Shown here: positions 1-28,838 of the stretch, piece by piece | Numbering within the stretch: position 1 is the first letter of the stretch | Layout: the number at the start of each line of letters is the position of its first letter | Notes under the pieces: model-generated | The model's input: the letters and a program-made list of their open reading frames with translations, nothing else | Told to the model about the DNA's origin: nothing | Database searches by the model: none | Made by a program: the position numbers and the translations under genes | NCBI RefSeq assembly: GCF_946479755.1 | Contig: NZ_CAMLHC010000054.1 | Location: forward strand, 1 to 28,838 | Origin: an uncultured Chitinophaga sp. | Lineage (GTDB): Bacteria; Bacteroidota; Bacteroidia; Chitinophagales; Chitinophagaceae | Length of the DNA stretch: 28,838 nt | Direction: 5' to 3'

Positions 1-1598
1 GGACCGCCGATTTTAGGCGTACCATCTCCATAGAAAGGCGTATCCCACGGCATGATGCTATTGGCATCGCTGAGAGGCGAGTAAAAGCCGCCTGACTTAC
101 CATTGGAATGGGAAATGCTGGCATTCGTGGAAAGGGACAGTCTTTCTGTAGCCTGGAAATCCACATTAAAACGGAAATTATACTTCCGGTAGCTGTCTGT
201 TATCACGGGAGCCACCTCATTAAAATAATCGCCGGAGGCGTAATATTTTACCCGCTGGTCACCACCGGATATCCATACATTGTAATTCTGTGTATGACCT
301 GTCCGCAGAAACAGATCGCGCCAGTCGGTATTATATTTCAATACGCTGTCCGGCACCATGGAATGTACATAATCGTTGATCGCCGTTTCGCTGGCACCAG
401 GGTTGGCATCTATATACTGGTTGCGGTAAATCTGCTGCTGCAGATCGAAACGCTCCCGGCTGTCCATCATCCTGAACTTCCCCAGCGATGCTTTGTTAAG
501 CCCAAAGGTAGCATTGGCACCCACTTTCGTGCCCCTGCCGCCGGCGCCGCCACGTTTGGTGGTAATCACCAGCACGCCGTTGGCCGCCCTGGAACCGTAT
601 AAGGCAGCGGAAGCTGCGTCTTTCAGTACGGTAACGGAAGCTATGTCGGTAGGAGAAATATTACTGAGCGGGTCTCTGTCATTGATGTATTCCTGGATAA
701 TACCATCGATCACCACCAGCGGCTGTGTGGCATTATACCCCATAGAACCCTTACCACGGATGACGATGGTGGAAGAAGTGTTACCAGCGCTGCTACTACC
801 GCTAAGCGATACGTTCATGCCGGCCACTTTCCCCTGCAGATTATCAAAGACAGACTGAGTAGTGGTGGTCTGTAATTCTTCCGAGGTGACCTGTGATACC
901 GCACCGGTCAGCTCTCCCATGCGTTTGTTGCTGTAACCGGTTACCACTACCTGGTTCAGCGCACGGGGCGTTTCAGAAAGGGCTACCGTCAATGGTCCGC
1001 CTACAGTATCTGTTTTTACCTTCCGGCTGTCATAACCGATAAAAGAAAATTCCAGTTGCTGACCATTGCCGGCATACAGCTGAAAATGGCCACTGCCGTC
1101 TGTAACAGCGCCGTTACCAGTGCCTTTTACCCGGATAGTCACGCCTGTCAGCGGTGCTCCGGATACAGTGGTAACAGTACCGCTCACCAGCCGGTTGTCT
1201 CCGGACGGCTCCTGCGAGGTGGACTGGTGGCTGTTTTTGGAAGGCTGCGGGGCGGTGATATACACATATTTCCCCTGTATGCGCCAGTTGTATTGTTTTC
1301 CCAGCACGGTCTGCAATGCTTCCTGGAGCGAGGCTTGTTGCAGGTTGACAGAAATATGCCTGTTCAGGTCTACTTCCGTGTCACTGTAAAAAAATTCATA
1401 GGAGGTTTTCTGTTGAATTTCTTTCAGCACAGCTTTTACTGTTCTGTCTTTAACAGATAAGGTAATGGTGGCTTTTGGCGACTGGGCGCTGACAGTTGCG
1501 GTTCCCGCGAAGACAGTCATACAGGAACAGAGCAATACGGCATGAAAACGTAGTGACCAGCCTTTTCGGAAAGGCATAGGTATCCCCTTTAGTTTCAT
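1..1598 (-). CDS. SusC/RagA-family TonB-dependent outer membrane receptor (C-terminus beyond window)
   Basis: I translated this from the reverse strand; about 532 residues are present and the beta-barrel runs off the left edge. The start chosen is ATG at 1598 (MKLKGIPMPF); an ATG at 1577 would also leave a full signal peptide, whose cleavage is predicted near A38 (VSA-Q). Visible parts in order: an STN domain (about 40-115, the short N-terminal domain of receptors that signal to a FecR), a carboxypeptidase-regulatory-like beta-sandwich (about 130-205, SGTVTTVSGAPLTGVTIRVKG), then the plug domain with the SusC signatures IRGKGSMG, PLVVIDGI and SVTVLKDAASAALYGSRAANG. The family imports oligosaccharides or other large nutrients across the outer membrane with TonB energy, usually with a SusD lipoprotein, which would lie beyond the edge. 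It follows fecR by 52 bases and fecI, so the STN domain probably transmits substrate binding to that pair. The substrate cannot be read from the sequence. Confidence 0.95.
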   Translation of the reverse strand, partial: MKLKGIPMPFRKGWSLRFHAVLLCSCMTVFAGTATVSAQSPKATITLSVKDRTVKAVLKEIQQKTSYEFFYSDTEVDLNRHISVNLQQASLQEALQTVLGKQYNWRIQGKYVYITAPQPSKNSHQSTSQEPSGDNRLVSGTVTTVSGAPLTGVTIRVKGTGNGAVTDGSGHFQLYAGNGQQLEFSFIGYDSRKVKTDTVGGPLTVALSETPRALNQVVVTGYSNKRMGELTGAVSQVTSEELQTTTTQSVFDNLQGKVAGMNVSLSGSSSAGNTSSTIVIRGKGSMGYNATQPLVVIDGIIQEYINDRDPLSNISPTDIASVTVLKDAASAALYGSRAANGVLVITTKRGGAGGRGTKVGANATFGLNKASLGKFRMMDSRERFDLQQQIYRNQYIDANPGASETAINDYVHSMVPDSVLKYNTDWRDLFLRTGHTQNYNVWISGGDQRVKYYASGDYFNEVAPVITDSYRKYNFRFNVDFQATERLSLSTNASISHSNGKSGGFYSPLSDANSIMPWDTPFYGDGTPKIGG

Positions 1599-1650
1599 CA
1601 CTATTAATTTTGGTTAATTAAAAATCAGCTGAGCTGTAAATACCCGCAGA

Positions 1651-2784
1651 CTATTTTTTTGTCACTATGATGGTTGATCCTTGCAACGAAAATGAAAATT
1701 GGTTGGTGCTGTTATTCAATGACTGGAGGCATTCTCCCAGTCCCTGTTCTTTATTAATATAGCAAGTAAAATACTGTCCTGTTAGTTGTTGTTCATCTGC
1801 CTGTATATCGATATCATACCACCTTGAAATCGTTTGTAGTATGGATGTTAATGGTTTGTTACGGAAACGTATCCAGCCGTCTTTCCACGAAGTAAATTCT
1901 TCCGTGTCCACCTGTACCACCTGCAGCTGGGTGCCACTCACAATGGCCTGTTCTCCCGGTTGCAGCACCTGGTCTTTTCCGGCGGCCTGTACTTTTACCT
2001 TTCCGTTGACCAGCGTAGTAAGCCCTTGTTGTTCTTTTTCATACTGGCGGATGCCAAACGCCGTTCCGAGCACGGTGATCTCCTGTATGCCTGCCTGCAC
2101 CACAAATGGTTGTTGCGCCTTAGCTGCCACTTCAAAATATACTTCTCCCGTCACTGTTACACGGCGCTCATTACCGGAAAAAACGGAAGGATAGGCGATG
2201 CTGGATGCGGCGTTCAGCCACACTTTGGAACCGTCGGGCAGTTGGACCTCGTAACTGGCGCCCCGTGGCGTACGCAGCGTGTAGTTCACCGGTTTGTCCG
2301 TCGCCACCTGCATATGACCATTATGTACATTCACCCGGTTACCTCCCAGCATAAAACTGCTGTCTCTGCCGTGCAGCGACACTGTTTCATCTCCTGCCTG
2401 CAATATCGCAAAATTGCCAACAGGCTTCTGTTTGGCGGCAGCCAGCGTATCTATGGACGGTGCCGGCTGTTTTGTTCGTTGCATGAACCAGTAAACACCC
2501 GCTGTCAGTAACAATACCGCTGCCGCAGCGCGCCATAATATCCGGAGGTTACGATGCTTTATCACGGTGGGCGCCGCCTCCTGTACAATGCCCGACCACA
2601 TACGGTGGGTATCGAAAGACTGCTGCAAACGCCATTCCTCCATCAGCCGGCGCAGTTGCTCCGGTTCCTCCAGCAGCACCGCCCTGGCAGGATCTTCCCG
2701 CAGCCACGACTGCACCGCAGGATCTTCCGGTTGAAGTTCCCCGCTCAGTATGCCGGATAATATGTGGATGTCTGTCTCTTCCAT
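1651..2784 (-). CDS. FecR-family anti-sigma factor
   Basis: This 377-residue protein has the usual length and layout of Bacteroidota FecR. It has a cytoplasmic N-terminal part (1-80) that would hold the sigma factor, one membrane segment (about 82-101, rich in A, L and V and ending WFMQR), a periplasmic FecR domain (about 168-262, including RTPRGASYEVQLPDGSKVWLN and TVTGEVYFEVA), and a C-terminal DUF4974 domain (about 305-375, FRNKPLTSILQTISRWYDI) that contacts the STN domain of the receptor. The start is ATG at 2784. It lies 79 bases after the sigma factor and 52 bases before the SusC receptor on the same strand, the standard cell-surface signalling order. In this family the anti-sigma factor releases or activates its sigma factor when the receptor is loaded; the specific signal is unknown here. 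Confidence 0.95.
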   Translation of the reverse strand: MEETDIHILSGILSGELQPEDPAVQSWLREDPARAVLLEEPEQLRRLMEEWRLQQSFDTHRMWSGIVQEAAPTVIKHRNLRILWRAAAAVLLLTAGVYWFMQRTKQPAPSIDTLAAAKQKPVGNFAILQAGDETVSLHGRDSSFMLGGNRVNVHNGHMQVATDKPVNYTLRTPRGASYEVQLPDGSKVWLNAASSIAYPSVFSGNERRVTVTGEVYFEVAAKAQQPFVVQAGIQEITVLGTAFGIRQYEKEQQGLTTLVNGKVKVQAAGKDQVLQPGEQAIVSGTQLQVVQVDTEEFTSWKDGWIRFRNKPLTSILQTISRWYDIDIQADEQQLTGQYFTCYINKEQGLGECLQSLNNSTNQFSFSLQGSTIIVTKK

Positions 2785-2863
2785 GGATGAAGGGCCGTTG
2801 TTATGATGACACGGATAGGTTTAAAATGTACTACGCCGGTGAGGGATTTTTTTGAAGATTTTT

Positions 2864-3484
2864 TCATCTTCCCATAAAACCCGCCAGCAGCAAGCAAATC
2901 AGCTCTAAAAGAATATTATTCCTTAATATTTCATATGCTTTGGCCACCTGGTTTCTGACGGTGAACACCGATATCCCCAGTTCTTCTGCTACCGCTTTAT
3001 ATTTTTTCTGCTCCAGGCATACCTTTTCAAACACGGTCCTGCATTGCTGCGGCAGCCCGGCCACAACCCGCTCCAGCTGCTGTACACGCTGCTGCAGACG
3101 AAGCTCCCGTTCAATAGCCTCTTCATCCACCGGGATATTCTCCGGCAAGGTGTTATCCGACACAACAGGATTGTCCCTTAAATAATTAAGGCAGGCGTTA
3201 TGAACGGCCCGGTAAGCATAGCGTTGGGGAGGCGCCTGTATATGGAGCTGGCCGCGTTTCTGCCACAAGCGGGAAAAGAAGTCCTGTACAATGTCTTCCG
3301 CCGCCTGCCTGTCTTTGACGATACGCAGCGCATAGACACACAAAGCCGCAGCCGTGCTTTTAAAAAATCGTTCAAAGGCGGCCGGATCGCGTTGCAGTTC
3401 CTCCCAGGAGTAATTTTCCGATTGGTTCAGTTGGTTCAAGTTTGCATTCGAAAGGAATACGCCAAATATATAAATTAAAATCAA
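2864..3484 (-). CDS. ECF sigma-70 factor, FecI type
   Basis: This is an RNA polymerase sigma factor of the extracytoplasmic-function group. Region 2 is visible around residues 39-105 (RQAAEDIVQDFFSRLWQKR binds core polymerase and the -10 region). Region 4 is around 140-190, with a helix-turn-helix at YKAVAEELGISVFTVRNQVAKAYEILR. A hydrophobic tail (LLELICLLLAGFMGR) follows, as is often seen in FecI-like proteins of Bacteroidota. No in-frame ATG exists upstream of region 2: the longest frame begins at a TTG at 3484, and a second TTG is at 3439. A TATATTTG promoter box at 3463-3470 lies inside the longer version, so the 3439 start (191 residues) is the more likely one. It heads the fecI-fecR-susC set and presumably transcribes the receptor gene and possibly the whole locus. 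Confidence 0.9.
   Translation of the reverse strand: MILIYIFGVFLSNANLNQLNQSENYSWEELQRDPAAFERFFKSTAAALCVYALRIVKDRQAAEDIVQDFFSRLWQKRGQLHIQAPPQRYAYRAVHNACLNYLRDNPVVSDNTLPENIPVDEEAIERELRLQQRVQQLERVVAGLPQQCRTVFEKVCLEQKKYKAVAEELGISVFTVRNQVAKAYEILRNNILLELICLLLAGFMGR
3463..3470 (-). promoter_or_regulatory. Putative -7 promoter box of the sigma factor gene
   Basis: The minus strand reads TATATTTG, matching the Bacteroidota -7 consensus TAnnTTTG. No good -33 TTTG lies at the usual 18-21 base distance, because the region upstream is occupied by the hairpin and T-tract of the preceding gene's terminator. If used, transcription would begin near 3456-3459, downstream of the TTG at 3484, which favours the TTG at 3439 as translation start. 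Confidence 0.4.
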
Positions 3485-4462: not shown

Positions 4463-4520
4463 TGTAGATGTTTTGTAGATGTGCTTTTTCACCCCCTGTA
4501 GACCCACTGTAGTATCTACA
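4463..4520 (+). promoter_or_regulatory. TGTAG multi-box operator, copy A (upstream of the DUF4870 gene)
   Basis: TGTAG occurs at 4463, 4474, 4497 and 4508, giving start-to-start spacings of 11, 23 and 11 bases. CTACA follows at 4516, making the last box an inverted repeat (TGTAG-tat-CTACA). The first two boxes sit in a near-identical stretch shared with copy B at 6958-7015, where all spacings are the same. The element ends about where a -33 box would be, which suggests an activator site. The likely ligand is the HTH regulator encoded at 4976-6940, by proximity. Confidence 0.75.
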
Positions 4521-4546
4521 AAAGCAGGAACGGTTTTACGGCCGCC

Positions 4547-4554
4547 TACCTTTG
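4547..4554 (+). promoter_or_regulatory. -7 promoter box of the DUF4870 gene
   Basis: TACCTTTG fits the Bacteroidota consensus TAnnTTTG and starts 84 bases after the first TGTAG box, exactly as in copy B. No TTTG lies at the -33 position; the end of the TGTAG element sits there instead. Predicted transcription start is near 4558, leaving a leader of about 53 bases before ATG 4611. Confidence 0.65.
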
Positions 4555-4610
4555 TGCTGTTTCCATTTTATCCTTTTATCATTTTTTAAACATCAACATC
4601 AGCGCAACTT

Positions 4611-4940
4611 ATGAAGACAAAACAATGGGCTATCATCGCTTACATTACGATCATCGGATGGATTATCGCCTATGTGAAGAGCAAGGAGAACAAGGACAAT
4701 TTTGTTAACTACCATCTGGAACAGGCACTCGGCCTTGCGGTAGCAGGACTCATATGGTCTGTGGCCGCCGGCATCCTGTTGAGCATTATCCCCGCGCTGT
4801 CCGCGGTATTCTCCGTATTGAGCCTGCTGCCGCTGATATTCATGGTATTTGGTATTATCAATGCCAACAGCGGTGTGCAGAAACCGATACCGGTCATCGG
4901 AAAATTCTTTGAGAACCGGTTCGTTTTCCTACAGCAATAA
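4611..4940 (+). CDS. DUF4870-family (Tic20-like) small membrane protein
   Basis: This 109-residue protein has three hydrophobic segments (about 4-22, 38-60 and 63-85). It carries the motif DNFVNYHLEQALGL between the first two, typical of DUF4870 proteins of Bacteroidota, which databases sometimes label 'import component protein' from a distant likeness to Tic20. It should be an inner membrane protein of unknown function. It is the only sizeable plus-strand gene in the window and converges on the TPR regulator. Its promoter region carries the TGTAG element also found at the regulator's 5' end, so the two are probably functionally linked. Transcription likely stops at the hairpin at 4978-5010. 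Confidence 0.85.
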   Translation: MKTKQWAIIAYITIIGWIIAYVKSKENKDNFVNYHLEQALGLAVAGLIWSVAAGILLSIIPALSAVFSVLSLLPLIFMVFGIINANSGVQKPIPVIGKFFENRFVFLQQ

Positions 4941-4975
4941 ACTTAGCCCGAACATTTCATCCGGCCCCATTTCCG

Positions 4976-6940
4976 CTAACCCGCTGCGTCTTCGCTCAGC
5001 GGGTTATTTTCTCTCCAGGCCATCAGCCACGCATCCAAACCCTCTTCTTTGGCCAGTCCCAGCTTTTGTTTAATACGGTACCGTGACATCAGGATACTCT
5101 TCGGCGCTACGCCCAGGTGAGACGCAATTTCTTTGGTGGACAAACCGATGGAAATATAGGAACAGTGCTTCAAATCCAGCTTTGTAAGACTGTTACCGGC
5201 CTTCTCCTGCAGCTTCCGGAAAAACTCCGGATGAATATTTTCAAACTCCGTCCGCGTGGTCTCAAAGTTTTTATCCATCCGTTTATGCGTTTCGATCATC
5301 CGGGAAATCTGCTTCGCCAGGTCAGGCTGCACCGCTTTGTCACGGAGCTTTTCCTGCAACGTTTCGAGCAGCTCATTTTTCTGCTCCACCTGCAAAGTAC
5401 CTGCCAGCAGGTCTTTCTGCAACTGCTCTTTCTGCGTTTGTATCAGCTCCTGTTCTGCCTGCAAACGCGCCGCTTCTTCCGCCTGTAAGCGGGCCTGCAA
5501 TTCAGCTTCCTGCTTTTCCAGTTGCAGGCGCATAGCCTCTTCTTCTTTCAGGCGTATCTGCAGCACGCCATCCTGCTTCTCTTTCTCCAGCAGCTGCTGT
5601 TGCTGAATAGTGGTCTTCAAACGGAAGTGATAAGACCGGAACAGGTACAACAGCGCCACCAGGCAGGCCACAATCAATCCGATATATACAATATTGAGTT
5701 TACGGTTAAACGCCGCTTTCTCCTGGAGCGTTACCAGCTCCTGCTCCCGTTGACGGGCCTGGTATTGGGCTTCCAGCTTTTTGGCGATCGCCATTCGGTC
5801 GGCATCAAAAGCTTTGGCGTAATAGTGACTGTACTCCCGGGCATATTCAAGCGCCTTGGGCAGGTCGCCTTTTCTCTCCGCCACGTCGGACAAAGCTTCC
5901 ATCAGGCGGGCCATCAGCCGGTTGTCGGGCACGGGATAGGTTTTCAGCGCGATCAGCCCGGCCAGCAACAGGTCAGACGCCTGGTTATAGTTCCCGTCAT
6001 TCATAGCAAAGGTGCTCATCATGCCATAACAACTGGCCACTACCTCCTGTTGGTCGGTCTCCTTACCAATCTTCAGTGCGATGTTAAGGTAATGCTGTGC
6101 GGTGTCACGGTAGACGCGAGGAAAAAACTGACCATACAGGTTGGCCGTGTTCAGCGCCAGCAAAGCGATCATGCTGCGAAAGCTGATACGCTGCGCATTG
6201 GCTTCATAAACGCCGATGGCTTTACGGTTGTAGTACAGCGCGGAATCCAGCAGCTCCCGTTTAGCGGTGTCCCCGTTAAACTGGTATTCAAAACTGGTGG
6301 CCATGGCCTGGTAACCATTGCAGATATCGTCCGGGTCCGAACGGTACATGGCGGAAGCCAGACAGGCTTTCGCATAACGGTACTGTGTTTCCGTATCGTT
6401 CCAGTCAGCATAAATGGCAGCAAGGTTATAATATACATTGGTTTCGTAAACGTTGCCCGGAAAGTTCTTCCCCAGCTTCAGCGATTCCTGGAAGCTCTTC
6501 ACCGCTTCATGCGGCTTGCCGGTACGGCTTTCCAGCCACCCCTTACGGTACCATATGCTGGACAGTGTCAGCTGGTCGCCCGATTCGCGGGCCAACCGGA
6601 AGGCGCTGTCCAGGTGATGCGATGCCACTGCGGTGTCTTCTGCGGTATATTCCAGCGATACCAGCGCGGAATGCGCCAGTGCTTCATACTTTCTGTCTTT
6701 CAGGGAACGGCTCATCTCCAGCGCTGTACGCGTGCTGGCAATGGCGTCTTTCCGGCTGCCGTCTACCAGCGCGCGTCCCATCCTGATCCGTGTCATCACC
6801 TGCTCTTCCGGTGTTAACCCCGGCTGTTGCAGTACCCGCTTCAGGGAATCCTGCACGGTTTGCGCAAAACTACTGGCTGTCAGTAGGGAAAACAGGGTTA
6901 CAAACACAATGACTCCTCTCATCTTTAGGCTATGGTTCAT
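4976..6940 (-). CDS. Membrane-anchored TPR / coiled-coil / LuxR-type HTH transcriptional regulator
   Basis: The protein is about 654 residues. The longest frame begins with TTG at 6955; ATG at 6940 (MNHSLKMRG) or ATG at 6922 (MRGVIVFVTLFSLLTASSFAQ) is more likely, and both keep a good signal peptide. After it come TPR-like helical repeats (about 30-400), a membrane segment (about 415-435, NIVYIGLIVACLVALLYLF), a long coiled coil rich in E, Q and K (about 440-535), and a C-terminal LuxR/GerE-type helix-turn-helix (about 592-628, YISIGLSTKEIASHLGVAPKSILMSRYRIKQKLGL). The topology puts the TPR sensor in the periplasm and the DNA-binding domain in the cytoplasm, so it is a one-component transmembrane regulator. 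Such proteins are common and mostly uncharacterised in Bacteroidota. TGTAG element copy B lies immediately upstream of its start, and copy A lies before the convergent DUF4870 gene. This suggests autoregulation and control of both neighbours, which is inference. Confidence 0.9.
   Translation of the reverse strand: MNHSLKMRGVIVFVTLFSLLTASSFAQTVQDSLKRVLQQPGLTPEEQVMTRIRMGRALVDGSRKDAIASTRTALEMSRSLKDRKYEALAHSALVSLEYTAEDTAVASHHLDSAFRLARESGDQLTLSSIWYRKGWLESRTGKPHEAVKSFQESLKLGKNFPGNVYETNVYYNLAAIYADWNDTETQYRYAKACLASAMYRSDPDDICNGYQAMATSFEYQFNGDTAKRELLDSALYYNRKAIGVYEANAQRISFRSMIALLALNTANLYGQFFPRVYRDTAQHYLNIALKIGKETDQQEVVASCYGMMSTFAMNDGNYNQASDLLLAGLIALKTYPVPDNRLMARLMEALSDVAERKGDLPKALEYAREYSHYYAKAFDADRMAIAKKLEAQYQARQREQELVTLQEKAAFNRKLNIVYIGLIVACLVALLYLFRSYHFRLKTTIQQQQLLEKEKQDGVLQIRLKEEEAMRLQLEKQEAELQARLQAEEAARLQAEQELIQTQKEQLQKDLLAGTLQVEQKNELLETLQEKLRDKAVQPDLAKQISRMIETHKRMDKNFETTRTEFENIHPEFFRKLQEKAGNSLTKLDLKHCSYISIGLSTKEIASHLGVAPKSILMSRYRIKQKLGLAKEEGLDAWLMAWRENNPLSEDAAG
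4978..5010 (+). terminator. Terminator of the DUF4870 transcript, inside the end of the convergent gene
   Basis: A perfect 9-bp stem (AACCCGCTG at 4978-4986 with CAGCGGGTT at 4997-5005) is followed on the plus strand by ATTTTCTC. On the other strand the same bases encode the last ten codons of the TPR regulator. The two transcripts therefore overlap tail to tail. Confidence 0.6.
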
Positions 6941-6944
6941 CCGC

Positions 6945-6952
6945 CAAAAATA
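6945..6952 (-). promoter_or_regulatory. Putative -7 box of the TPR regulator gene
   Basis: The minus strand reads TATTTTTG, fitting TAnnTTTG. It ends only four bases before the ATG at 6940, so use of that ATG would give a practically leaderless mRNA; the ATG at 6922 would have a leader of about 20 bases. The TGTAG element abuts it on the upstream side and would cover the polymerase site. No -33 TTTG is seen. Confidence 0.4.
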
Positions 6953-6957
6953 CAACT

Positions 6958-7015
6958 TGTAGAGGTTTTGTAGATGGGTAAAAAATCAGTTTGTAGTAGG
7001 CATGTAGATGCTACA
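6958..7015 (+). promoter_or_regulatory. TGTAG multi-box operator, copy B (between the regulator and a short rightward transcript)
   Basis: TGTAG occurs at 6958, 6969, 6992 and 7003 (spacings 11, 23, 11), with CTACA at 7011 making the last box an inverted repeat (TGTAG-atg-CTACA). Every spacing equals copy A at 4463-4520, while the bases between the boxes 2 and 3 differ, so the pattern is not explained by a simple recent duplication. It lies between the divergent starts of the regulator and a short plus-strand unit. Confidence 0.75.
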
Positions 7016-7041
7016 AATGCCGAAGATCCGCTACTGGTAAG

Positions 7042-7049
7042 TACTTTTG
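7042..7049 (+). promoter_or_regulatory. -7 promoter box of the short rightward transcript
   Basis: TACTTTTG fits TAnnTTTG. It begins 84 bases after the first TGTAG box, the same distance as at the DUF4870 promoter, and it also lacks a -33 TTTG. Predicted start of transcription is near 7053. Confidence 0.6.
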
Positions 7050-7075
7050 CTTCACAGAGTTCATTTGCAGTGATC

Positions 7076-7138
7076 ATGAAAGAAGATGGATTGAAAAACC
7101 TGCCTGCCTCACGCAGAACTCCGCGAGCGAACATTTAA
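7076..7138 (+). CDS. Possible 20-residue peptide (or small RNA) under the TGTAG element
   Basis: An ATG at 7076 opens a 21-codon frame, MKEDGLKNLPASRRTPRANI plus stop. It starts about 23 bases after the predicted transcription start and is followed by a strong terminator at 7195-7230, so the whole transcript would be about 175 bases. The peptide is basic and has no signal peptide or membrane segment. I recognise no family. The unit could equally be a non-coding small RNA whose ORF is incidental. What supports a real transcript is the promoter with its element and the terminator, not the peptide sequence. Confidence 0.35.
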   Translation: MKEDGLKNLPASRRTPRANI

Positions 7139-7194
7139 CCGGCCTGATCCGTTGTAGTTTACCCACCCTCTTTTTTATACTGTCTAAAAAAGAT

Positions 7195-7230
7195 AATGCA
7201 GCAGTGGTCCTCCCGCTGCTGCATTTTTAT
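7195..7230. terminator. Bidirectional terminator between the short transcript and the thioesterase gene
   Basis: An 11-bp stem (TGCAGCAGTGG with CCGCTGCTGCA, one U-G pair, loop TCCTC) is followed on the plus strand by TTTTTATT and on the minus strand by ATTATCTTTTTT. It can end both the short rightward transcript and the leftward thioesterase gene that stops at 7251. Confidence 0.8.
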
Positions 7231-28206: not shown

Positions 28207-28286
28207 TACCGCTGATGAGAATTGAACTCATGTCCTTCCCGATAAAGTAAAAATTGTGGGATGCTCTTCCATTGAGCTACAACGCT
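28207..28286 (-). tRNA. tRNA-like element with expanded anticodon loop (degenerate tRNA-Thr?)
   Basis: It is 80 nt. It folds with acceptor AGCGTTG/CAGCGGT (one G-G mismatch, one U-G), D arm GCTC/GAGC, and a perfect T arm ATGAG-TTCAATT-CTCAT. The anticodon arm is abnormal: TCCC/GGGA enclosing 17 bases instead of 7, so no anticodon can be assigned. The T loop TTCAATT is identical to that of the neighbouring tRNA-Thr and differs from the other tRNAs here, and GTTGTAGCTCA is also shared, which suggests a duplicated tRNA-Thr that diverged. It could be a pseudogene or a structure kept for control of tuf. Confidence 0.6.
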
Positions 28287-28759: not shown

Positions 28760-28838
28760 TGGGCAGGATAGGATTCGAACCTATGAAGTCGAAAGACAGC
28801 GGATTTACAGTCCGCCCCATTTGGCCGCTCTGGAACCT
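28760..28838 (-). tRNA. tRNA-Tyr (anticodon GTA), 5' end cut by the window edge
   Basis: The anticodon arm is GCGGA-CTGTAAA-TCCGC (anticodon GTA), with a class II variable arm and T arm ATAGG-TTCGAAT-CCTAT. The 3' acceptor half is CCTGCCC with discriminator A. Only the last three bases of the 5' acceptor strand (AGG) lie inside the window. Confidence 0.95.

Follow-up and report, generated by a model that had tools for sequence, protein, structure and literature searches.

A conserved TGTAG operator associated with a predicted membrane-tethered TPR/HTH regulator in Chitinophaga and other Bacteroidota

To our knowledge, Bacteroidota membrane one-component regulators have few defined operators. 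Amongst the closest described systems, ComA of Bacillus subtilis acts on a direct repeat, TTGCGG-5 nt-TTGCGG, with an 11-bp period beside the −35 element, and activates in a type II manner (available text of PMC4797271), whilst FimS of the Porphyromonas gingivalis FimS/FimR pair is a sensor kinase with a periplasmic tetratricopeptide repeat (TPR) domain, the signal of which is given as unknown (available text of PMC11053733). For BT3442, a Bacteroides TPR multidomain protein, the available portion of PMC2954219 describes no regulatory role. Here, a stretch of 28,838 nt from an uncultured Chitinophaga sp. (contig NZ_CAMLHC010000054.1 of assembly GCF_946479755.1, henceforth the window) was found to carry two operators, A and B, each of four TGTAG boxes, on either side of a gene for a protein with a TPR domain, one predicted transmembrane segment and a GerE-type helix–turn–helix (HTH). 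In all likelihood this protein is a membrane-tethered one-component activator that would bind both operators, controlling the genes at A and B as well as unlinked targets.

Box geometry and coupling to the regulator gene

Both operators display boxes at positions 0, 11, 34 and 45 and a TAnnTTTG promoter element at +84, and neither promoter has a TTTG at the −33 distance. This could be read directly, as the initial annotation had done, and exceeds chance, with TGTAGN6TGTAG occurring 4 times in the window and never in 100 dinucleotide-preserving shuffles. Operator A precedes the gene of a DUF4870 membrane protein, and operator B separates the regulator from a short, divergently oriented transcription unit, as follows (window coordinates).

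4463..4512, + strand: operator A, four TGTAG boxes (4463, 4474, 4497, 4508), by direct reading and shuffle test
4547..4554, + strand: DUF4870 promoter, −7 element TACCTTTG, starting 84 bases after box 1 and 50 after box 3
4611..4940, + strand: DUF4870 membrane protein gene, 109 aa, by PF09685 match and structure model
4976..6940, − strand: regulator gene, 654 aa, ATG at 6940, by Pfam domains, hydrophobicity, structure model and HTH alignment
6945..6952, − strand: −7 element TATTTTTG of the regulator's own promoter, 5 bases from operator B box 1
6958..7007, + strand: operator B, four TGTAG boxes (6958, 6969, 6992, 7003), by direct reading and shuffle test
7042..7049, + strand: candidate small RNA promoter, −7 element TACTTTTG, starting 84 bases after operator B box 1, an offset kept in 18 of 18 sequences
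7054..7228, + strand: candidate small RNA, both ends inferred, by alignment of relatives and core model
7057-7062/7116-7121, + strand: 5′ stem of the candidate small RNA, by comparison
7090-7100, + strand: conserved core ATTGAAAAACC of the candidate small RNA, by comparison
7195..7225, + strand: terminator hairpin, then a T-run, the hairpin being present in 18 of 18 sequences

Genome searches for the four-box pattern allowed up to 2 mismatches, with the reversed pattern as control, and covered 147 genomes of the family and 79 Chitinophaga genomes (G001 and G007 belonging to both sets). The family set returned 11 matches in 7 genomes (control, 2), 10 of which adjoin a regulator homologue, such homologues having been located separately in 12 genomes. 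The genus set returned 67 (control, 4), with 43 lying within 1 kb of a regulator-type gene: 31 of the 34 perfect matches, 9 of the 20 with one mismatch and 3 of the 13 with two. The surroundings of these genes, identified from 92 matches in 53 genomes (at least two being long kinase-type proteins), amount to approximately 0.06 % of the genus sequence, assuming 7.5 Mb per genome.

A broader comparison used the best 80 of 291 regulator loci (the named loci), which span four Bacteroidota orders; those bearing boxes include Chitinophaga, Pedobacter, Galbibacter and Algoriphagus. A perfect TGTAG-N6-TGTAG pair lies on the divergent strand, no more than 600 bp 5′ of the regulator, in 66 of the 80, compared with 0 on the forward strand and 0.1 in mononucleotide shuffles, and four boxes with at most 3 mismatches are found in 69. 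Boxes are present at 56 of 57 loci with a DUF4870 gene, at 14 of 23 without one, and at none of three loci of related TPR kinases, one of which is adjacent to DUF4870. Being kept without DUF4870 and absent at the kinase loci, they appear to follow the HTH protein. Closer to the window, all 8 species of the nearest subclade carry an operator on each side of the regulator (≤2 mismatches allowed), and in the wider C. eiseniae clade neither copy departs from the pattern at any of the 12 named loci. The proposed tie between boxes and regulator was thus borne out, and the four-box pattern is neither absent upstream of orthologues nor scattered at random through the genome, the two outcomes that the initial annotation had named as counting against it. 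Its notion of a small local regulon was not, as the system spans at least four Bacteroidota orders and has unlinked targets.

Not every spacing seen in the window is fixed. The 11 bases within a pair are retained, whilst the distance between pair starts, identical in the two window copies, ranges from 31 to 34 in relatives (33 bases in 41 operators, 34 in 22, 32 in 5 and 31 in 1). Of 70 operators, 51 have TAnnTTTG starting 50 bases beyond box 3 and one has it at 51, with no occurrence at the other offsets scanned (16 to 109). A second set, of 51 operators and sharing some members with the first, has it at +84 from box 1 in 32 cases and at +85 in 2, and lacks it in 17. The invariant features are the 11 bases within a pair and the 50 from box 3 to TAnnTTTG. 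CTACA, which occurs in both window copies (4516 in A, 7011 in B), was also considered as a general operator part and is not one, being found at +8 of box 4 in only 3 of the 70 operators of relatives.

Targets and the candidate small RNA

The protein encoded after operator A matches DUF4870 (PF09685) at 27.3 bits against a cut-off of 25, and its model has a predicted local distance difference test score (pLDDT) of 91. A likeness to Tic20 was followed up; the top three matches are TOC–TIC chains, but E-values of 1.2–3.8 leave a weak lead. As first proposed, DUF4870 and the regulator are linked, this being so in 57 of the 80 named loci, 45 with DUF4870 divergent at the operator and 12 with it beyond the regulator 3′ end. 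These last 12 form the window's clade, and a perfect four-box operator precedes DUF4870 in 12 of 12. As DUF4870 is usually divergent at the operator, the flanking pair of operators is a derived arrangement belonging to the C. eiseniae clade.

Some targets are unlinked. A third operator is found in 7 of 8 species of the nearest subclade, each time upstream of WG-repeat genes, and in three further genomes a related site precedes a protein that appears similar by eye. In the nearest genome, G001, whose regulator is 98 % identical to that of the window, the T-rich core described below is present at five sites. Besides A, B and the site at the WG genes, these are a further cassette of DUF4870 and regulator and an isolated pair preceding a DUF6985 gene. 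Pfam families were assigned to 14 of 30 proteins from other target loci and to none of the remaining 16; those represented include DUF2314, SMI1/KNR4 (SUKH; loci L145 and L067), WGR, WGR with LRR, WG, DUF6985, DUF1266 and phosphoesterase. A survey of 91 mechanically called open reading frames (ORFs) neighbouring 68 named loci, some of them without an operator, revealed SUFU (10) and TssD (9) as the commonest Pfam families; in single tests, three SUFU matches were strong and three TssD matches weak, one of the latter falling below cut-off. All SUFU genes derive from Pedobacter or a close metagenome-assembled genome, and 2 of 10 TssD-type proteins, including strong matches, from L216, an operator-less locus. 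SUKH and SuFu are dominant immunity families against polymorphic toxins (available text of PMC3482391), and a role of operator targets in antagonism or immunity is thereby suggested; no toxin gene was encountered, none having been specifically sought. At L224, L237 and L238 the operator, DUF4870, TssD-like and SUFU genes are consecutive, an order that possibly indicates a link to contact-dependent competition. A connection to type VI secretion in Chitinophaga was discarded, since none of the 30 TssD loci scanned (of 40 among the matches listed) carries the pair and the TssD-like matches in Pedobacter and relatives are weak.

The initial annotation described a short transcript at operator B; this account was incomplete, as comparison of 18 sequences (the window, L036 and L085–L100) points to a conserved candidate RNA unit. 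TAnnTTTG at +84 is retained in 18 of 18, and a terminator hairpin follows 165–182 nt later (203 and 220 nt in two insertion-bearing sequences). The terminator stems differ widely in sequence, several being unrelated, with pairing retained in 18 of 18 when judged one by one. The core, ATTGAAAAACC, displays one substitution in 16 aligned sequences and is lost in L091. A 6-bp stem near the RNA 5′ end is kept in most sequences with little covariation; the consensus energy is −0.25 kcal/mol, with six pairs, one changed on both sides, and the single-sequence z is −2.1. A conserved fold is thus weakly indicated, for the 5′ stem alone, the terminators being treated separately. Scanned against 79 genomes, a core model hits 15 of them once each, always at operator B, these being exactly its source genomes, and Rfam 15 at gathering score detects only tRNAs in the window, leaving the transcript unmatched.

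A rather unlikely alternative is that this transcript is a functionless relic, made from a promoter left behind when DUF4870 moved, or that it encodes a short peptide. DUF4870 does occupy the copy B position in 45 of 80 loci, the window unit holds a 20-codon ORF, the RNA model recovers just its 15 source genomes with weak structure support, and in two species (L090, L091) the unit is broken by an insertion with repeated CCCAGGACT words. Against it, promoter offset, core and terminator hairpin are retained as described above, and a conserved peptide was rejected on the grounds that the frame breaks between near relatives, including the nearest, L036. We read the copy B unit as a clade-specific, apparently non-coding candidate small RNA under the same activator. 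Pairing with the 5′ regions of the DUF4870 and regulator mRNAs was considered across 12 loci and rejected (z −2.7 to +1.7, no common site).

The regulator and what reads the boxes

The regulator (654 aa) comprises an N-terminal hydrophobic helix, a TPR domain, one transmembrane segment (approximately residues 412–435), a coiled coil and a GerE HTH (PF00196, 26.0 bits against a cut-off of 23.5, residues 590–635), the residues of the latter being nearly invariant. Its model (mean pLDDT 84, predicted template modelling score 0.60) displays the TPR domain, a long, low-confidence coiled coil and the C-terminal HTH; a PDB sequence search returned no relatives. Pfam yields only TPR-type and GerE families, with no kinase, receiver or autoinducer-binding domain. 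Acyl-homoserine lactone LuxR receptors carry an Autoinducer-binding N-terminal domain, and a receptor of this kind is accordingly ruled out, as is a FimS-type TPR two-component sensor, given that no kinase family is present and the FimS model scores 51.1 of 600 bits. Sensor, transmembrane segment and HTH share a single chain, the predicted topology being that of a membrane one-component regulator. TPR histidine kinases related to it occur at L082 4404-6647, L083 3936-6203 and L084 4046-6289, each adjoining a response-regulator-like gene; at L084 a DUF4870 gene without TGTAG boxes follows the kinase in the same direction. A tandem pair of regulator homologues is located at G212:C6:77176-80914.

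Activator-dependent promoters, as originally suggested, fit the target-side geometry. With consensus placement of the −33 element taken from the available text of PMC7366714, no more than 12 of 70 operators have a TTTG close to the canonical −33 position, 25–27 bases from box 3. The fixed spacing, together with boxes directly upstream of −33, suggests a class II activator layout, and the operators agree with a direct-repeat, ComA-like class II promoter in the 51 of 70 at +50 and the one at +51. In such a mechanism the TPR domain, predicted to be periplasmic, would sense a ligand, and the single transmembrane helix and coiled coil would relay its state to the cytoplasmic HTH. This would bind TGTAG half-sites directly repeated at an interval of one helical turn (11 bp), the proximal pair keeping a constant 50 bp to the −7 element and the distal pair lying about three turns upstream. 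Positioned just upstream of −33, where a good element is mostly missing, the HTH could recruit RNA polymerase in class II manner, switching on DUF4870 at A, the small RNA at B and WG-repeat genes at unlinked copies. Regulator self-control was also part of the initial annotation; the geometry of copy B suggests that this is repression rather than activation. Box 1 of operator B lies 5 bases from the regulator's own TAnnTTTG in 11 of 12 C. eiseniae clade loci, and as boxes 1–2 sit inside the regulator's promoter, binding there would probably repress it.

Several observations weigh against this reading. Amongst the genus four-box matches, 24 of 67 lie more than 1 kb from any regulator; 11 of the 80 named loci lack four boxes at ≤3 mismatches, and the 80 are not independent, many being related to one another. 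A strict TAnnTTTG is missing from 18 of 70 operators and from all 7 WG-gene operators. In G001 the bare pair shows no enrichment (16 matches versus 28 in the reversed control), such that a lone pair carries little meaning, and TGTAG pairs also occur beside another HTH family. Enrichment is limited to the four-box arrangement or to the pair plus T-rich core: TGTAGN4TTTGTAGA, at period 11, gives 26 matches versus 6 in the control across 12 related genomes, whilst period 12 gives 14 versus 11.

The other family consists of SusC/SusD-linked sensor-HTH regulators of approximately 980 aa (L018 5066; L019 5068, 5123; L262–L291). Divergent-strand TGTAG pairs accompany 15 of 30 such loci, or 19 with one mismatch allowed, and none of the ten most distant, from which it appears that more than one GerE-type protein reads TGTAG. 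It is improbable, all the same, that the boxes discussed here are read by one of these or by a response regulator, with the TPR regulator a mere neighbour or target. The location of the WG operators far from a regulator gene, in eight genomes, would accord with such a factor, but the SusC/SusD-linked pairs have a different core, GATGTAGTAATGATGTAGT, and a pair distance of mostly 55 bp, and the 11-(31 to 34)-11 form tracks the TPR regulator gene over four orders, with or without DUF4870, and is absent from its kinase version (0 of 3). TGTAG is probably common to several GerE-type regulators, with specificity arising from flanks and spacing. More improbable still is a regulator that represses its divergent targets, which the proximity of box 1 to the regulator's −7 element and a TTTGG-like stretch near −33 in some distant operators might favour, since on the target side the boxes stop a constant and considerable distance short of the −7 element and the rarity of TTTG near −33 suits activation.

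Sequence comparison defines half-site, period, fixed −7 distance and usual targets, which makes it possible to compile regulons by searching for the pattern. If the one-component activator is accepted, a single switch connects DUF4870, WG-repeat proteins and immunity-like genes, and the candidate small RNA gains a defined promoter and end. A tentative and, on balance, doubtful extension is a phylum-wide envelope-to-DNA switch, in which the TPR domain might detect envelope attack (a toxin or released peptide) and the HTH read TGTAG in 11-(20 to 23)-11 form, starting an immunity programme. That programme, equally tentative, might comprise DUF4870, WG-repeat, DUF6985, SUFU/SUKH and, in some Pedobacter relatives, Hcp-like proteins, with the clade small RNA. 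Output modules may have been swapped, given that the TPR sensor also exists as a kinase version beside DUF4870.

Elsewhere in the window, a SusC-like ORF (by eye) and FecR and sigma-70 family genes are consecutive at 3-3484, and Rfam calls two tRNAs, 28207-28286 and 28760-28838, missing from ARAGORN output.

Comparison with known systems

Literature searches, mainly of titles and abstract openings, revealed, among the papers listed, no description of a TPR–transmembrane–HTH/TGTAG system. BT3442 has its own family, NF053779, which matches regulator residues 342–630 at 32 bits against a cut-off of 940. The NCBIfam FimS model matches residues 62–432 at 51 bits, far below its cut-off of 600; FimS, however, is a histidine kinase whose regulator is a second protein, whereas here sensor and HTH belong to one polypeptide. 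The genus does contain kinase-type relatives next to a response-regulator gene. By Foldseek, the TPR model is closest to the eukaryotic LGN/Pins TPR domains (E 2e-8), with phage Rap, NprR and RapF bound to the ComA DNA-binding domain among the lower-ranked matches (E ~1e-5), and these resemblances make a peptide or protein ligand plausible. Rap and NprR are cytoplasmic, in contrast to the predicted periplasmic TPR domain of the regulator. The HTH of ComA and that of the regulator presumably belong to the same tetrahelical HTH superfamily, and, going by the ComA literature available, both systems use direct repeats of 11-bp period near −33/−35. ComA, as described there, is a soluble response regulator that also has a canonical inverted repeat, whilst the system presented here pairs a predicted membrane one-component protein and TPR sensor with a TGTAG half-site, two pairs of boxes and a fixed distance to TAnnTTTG.

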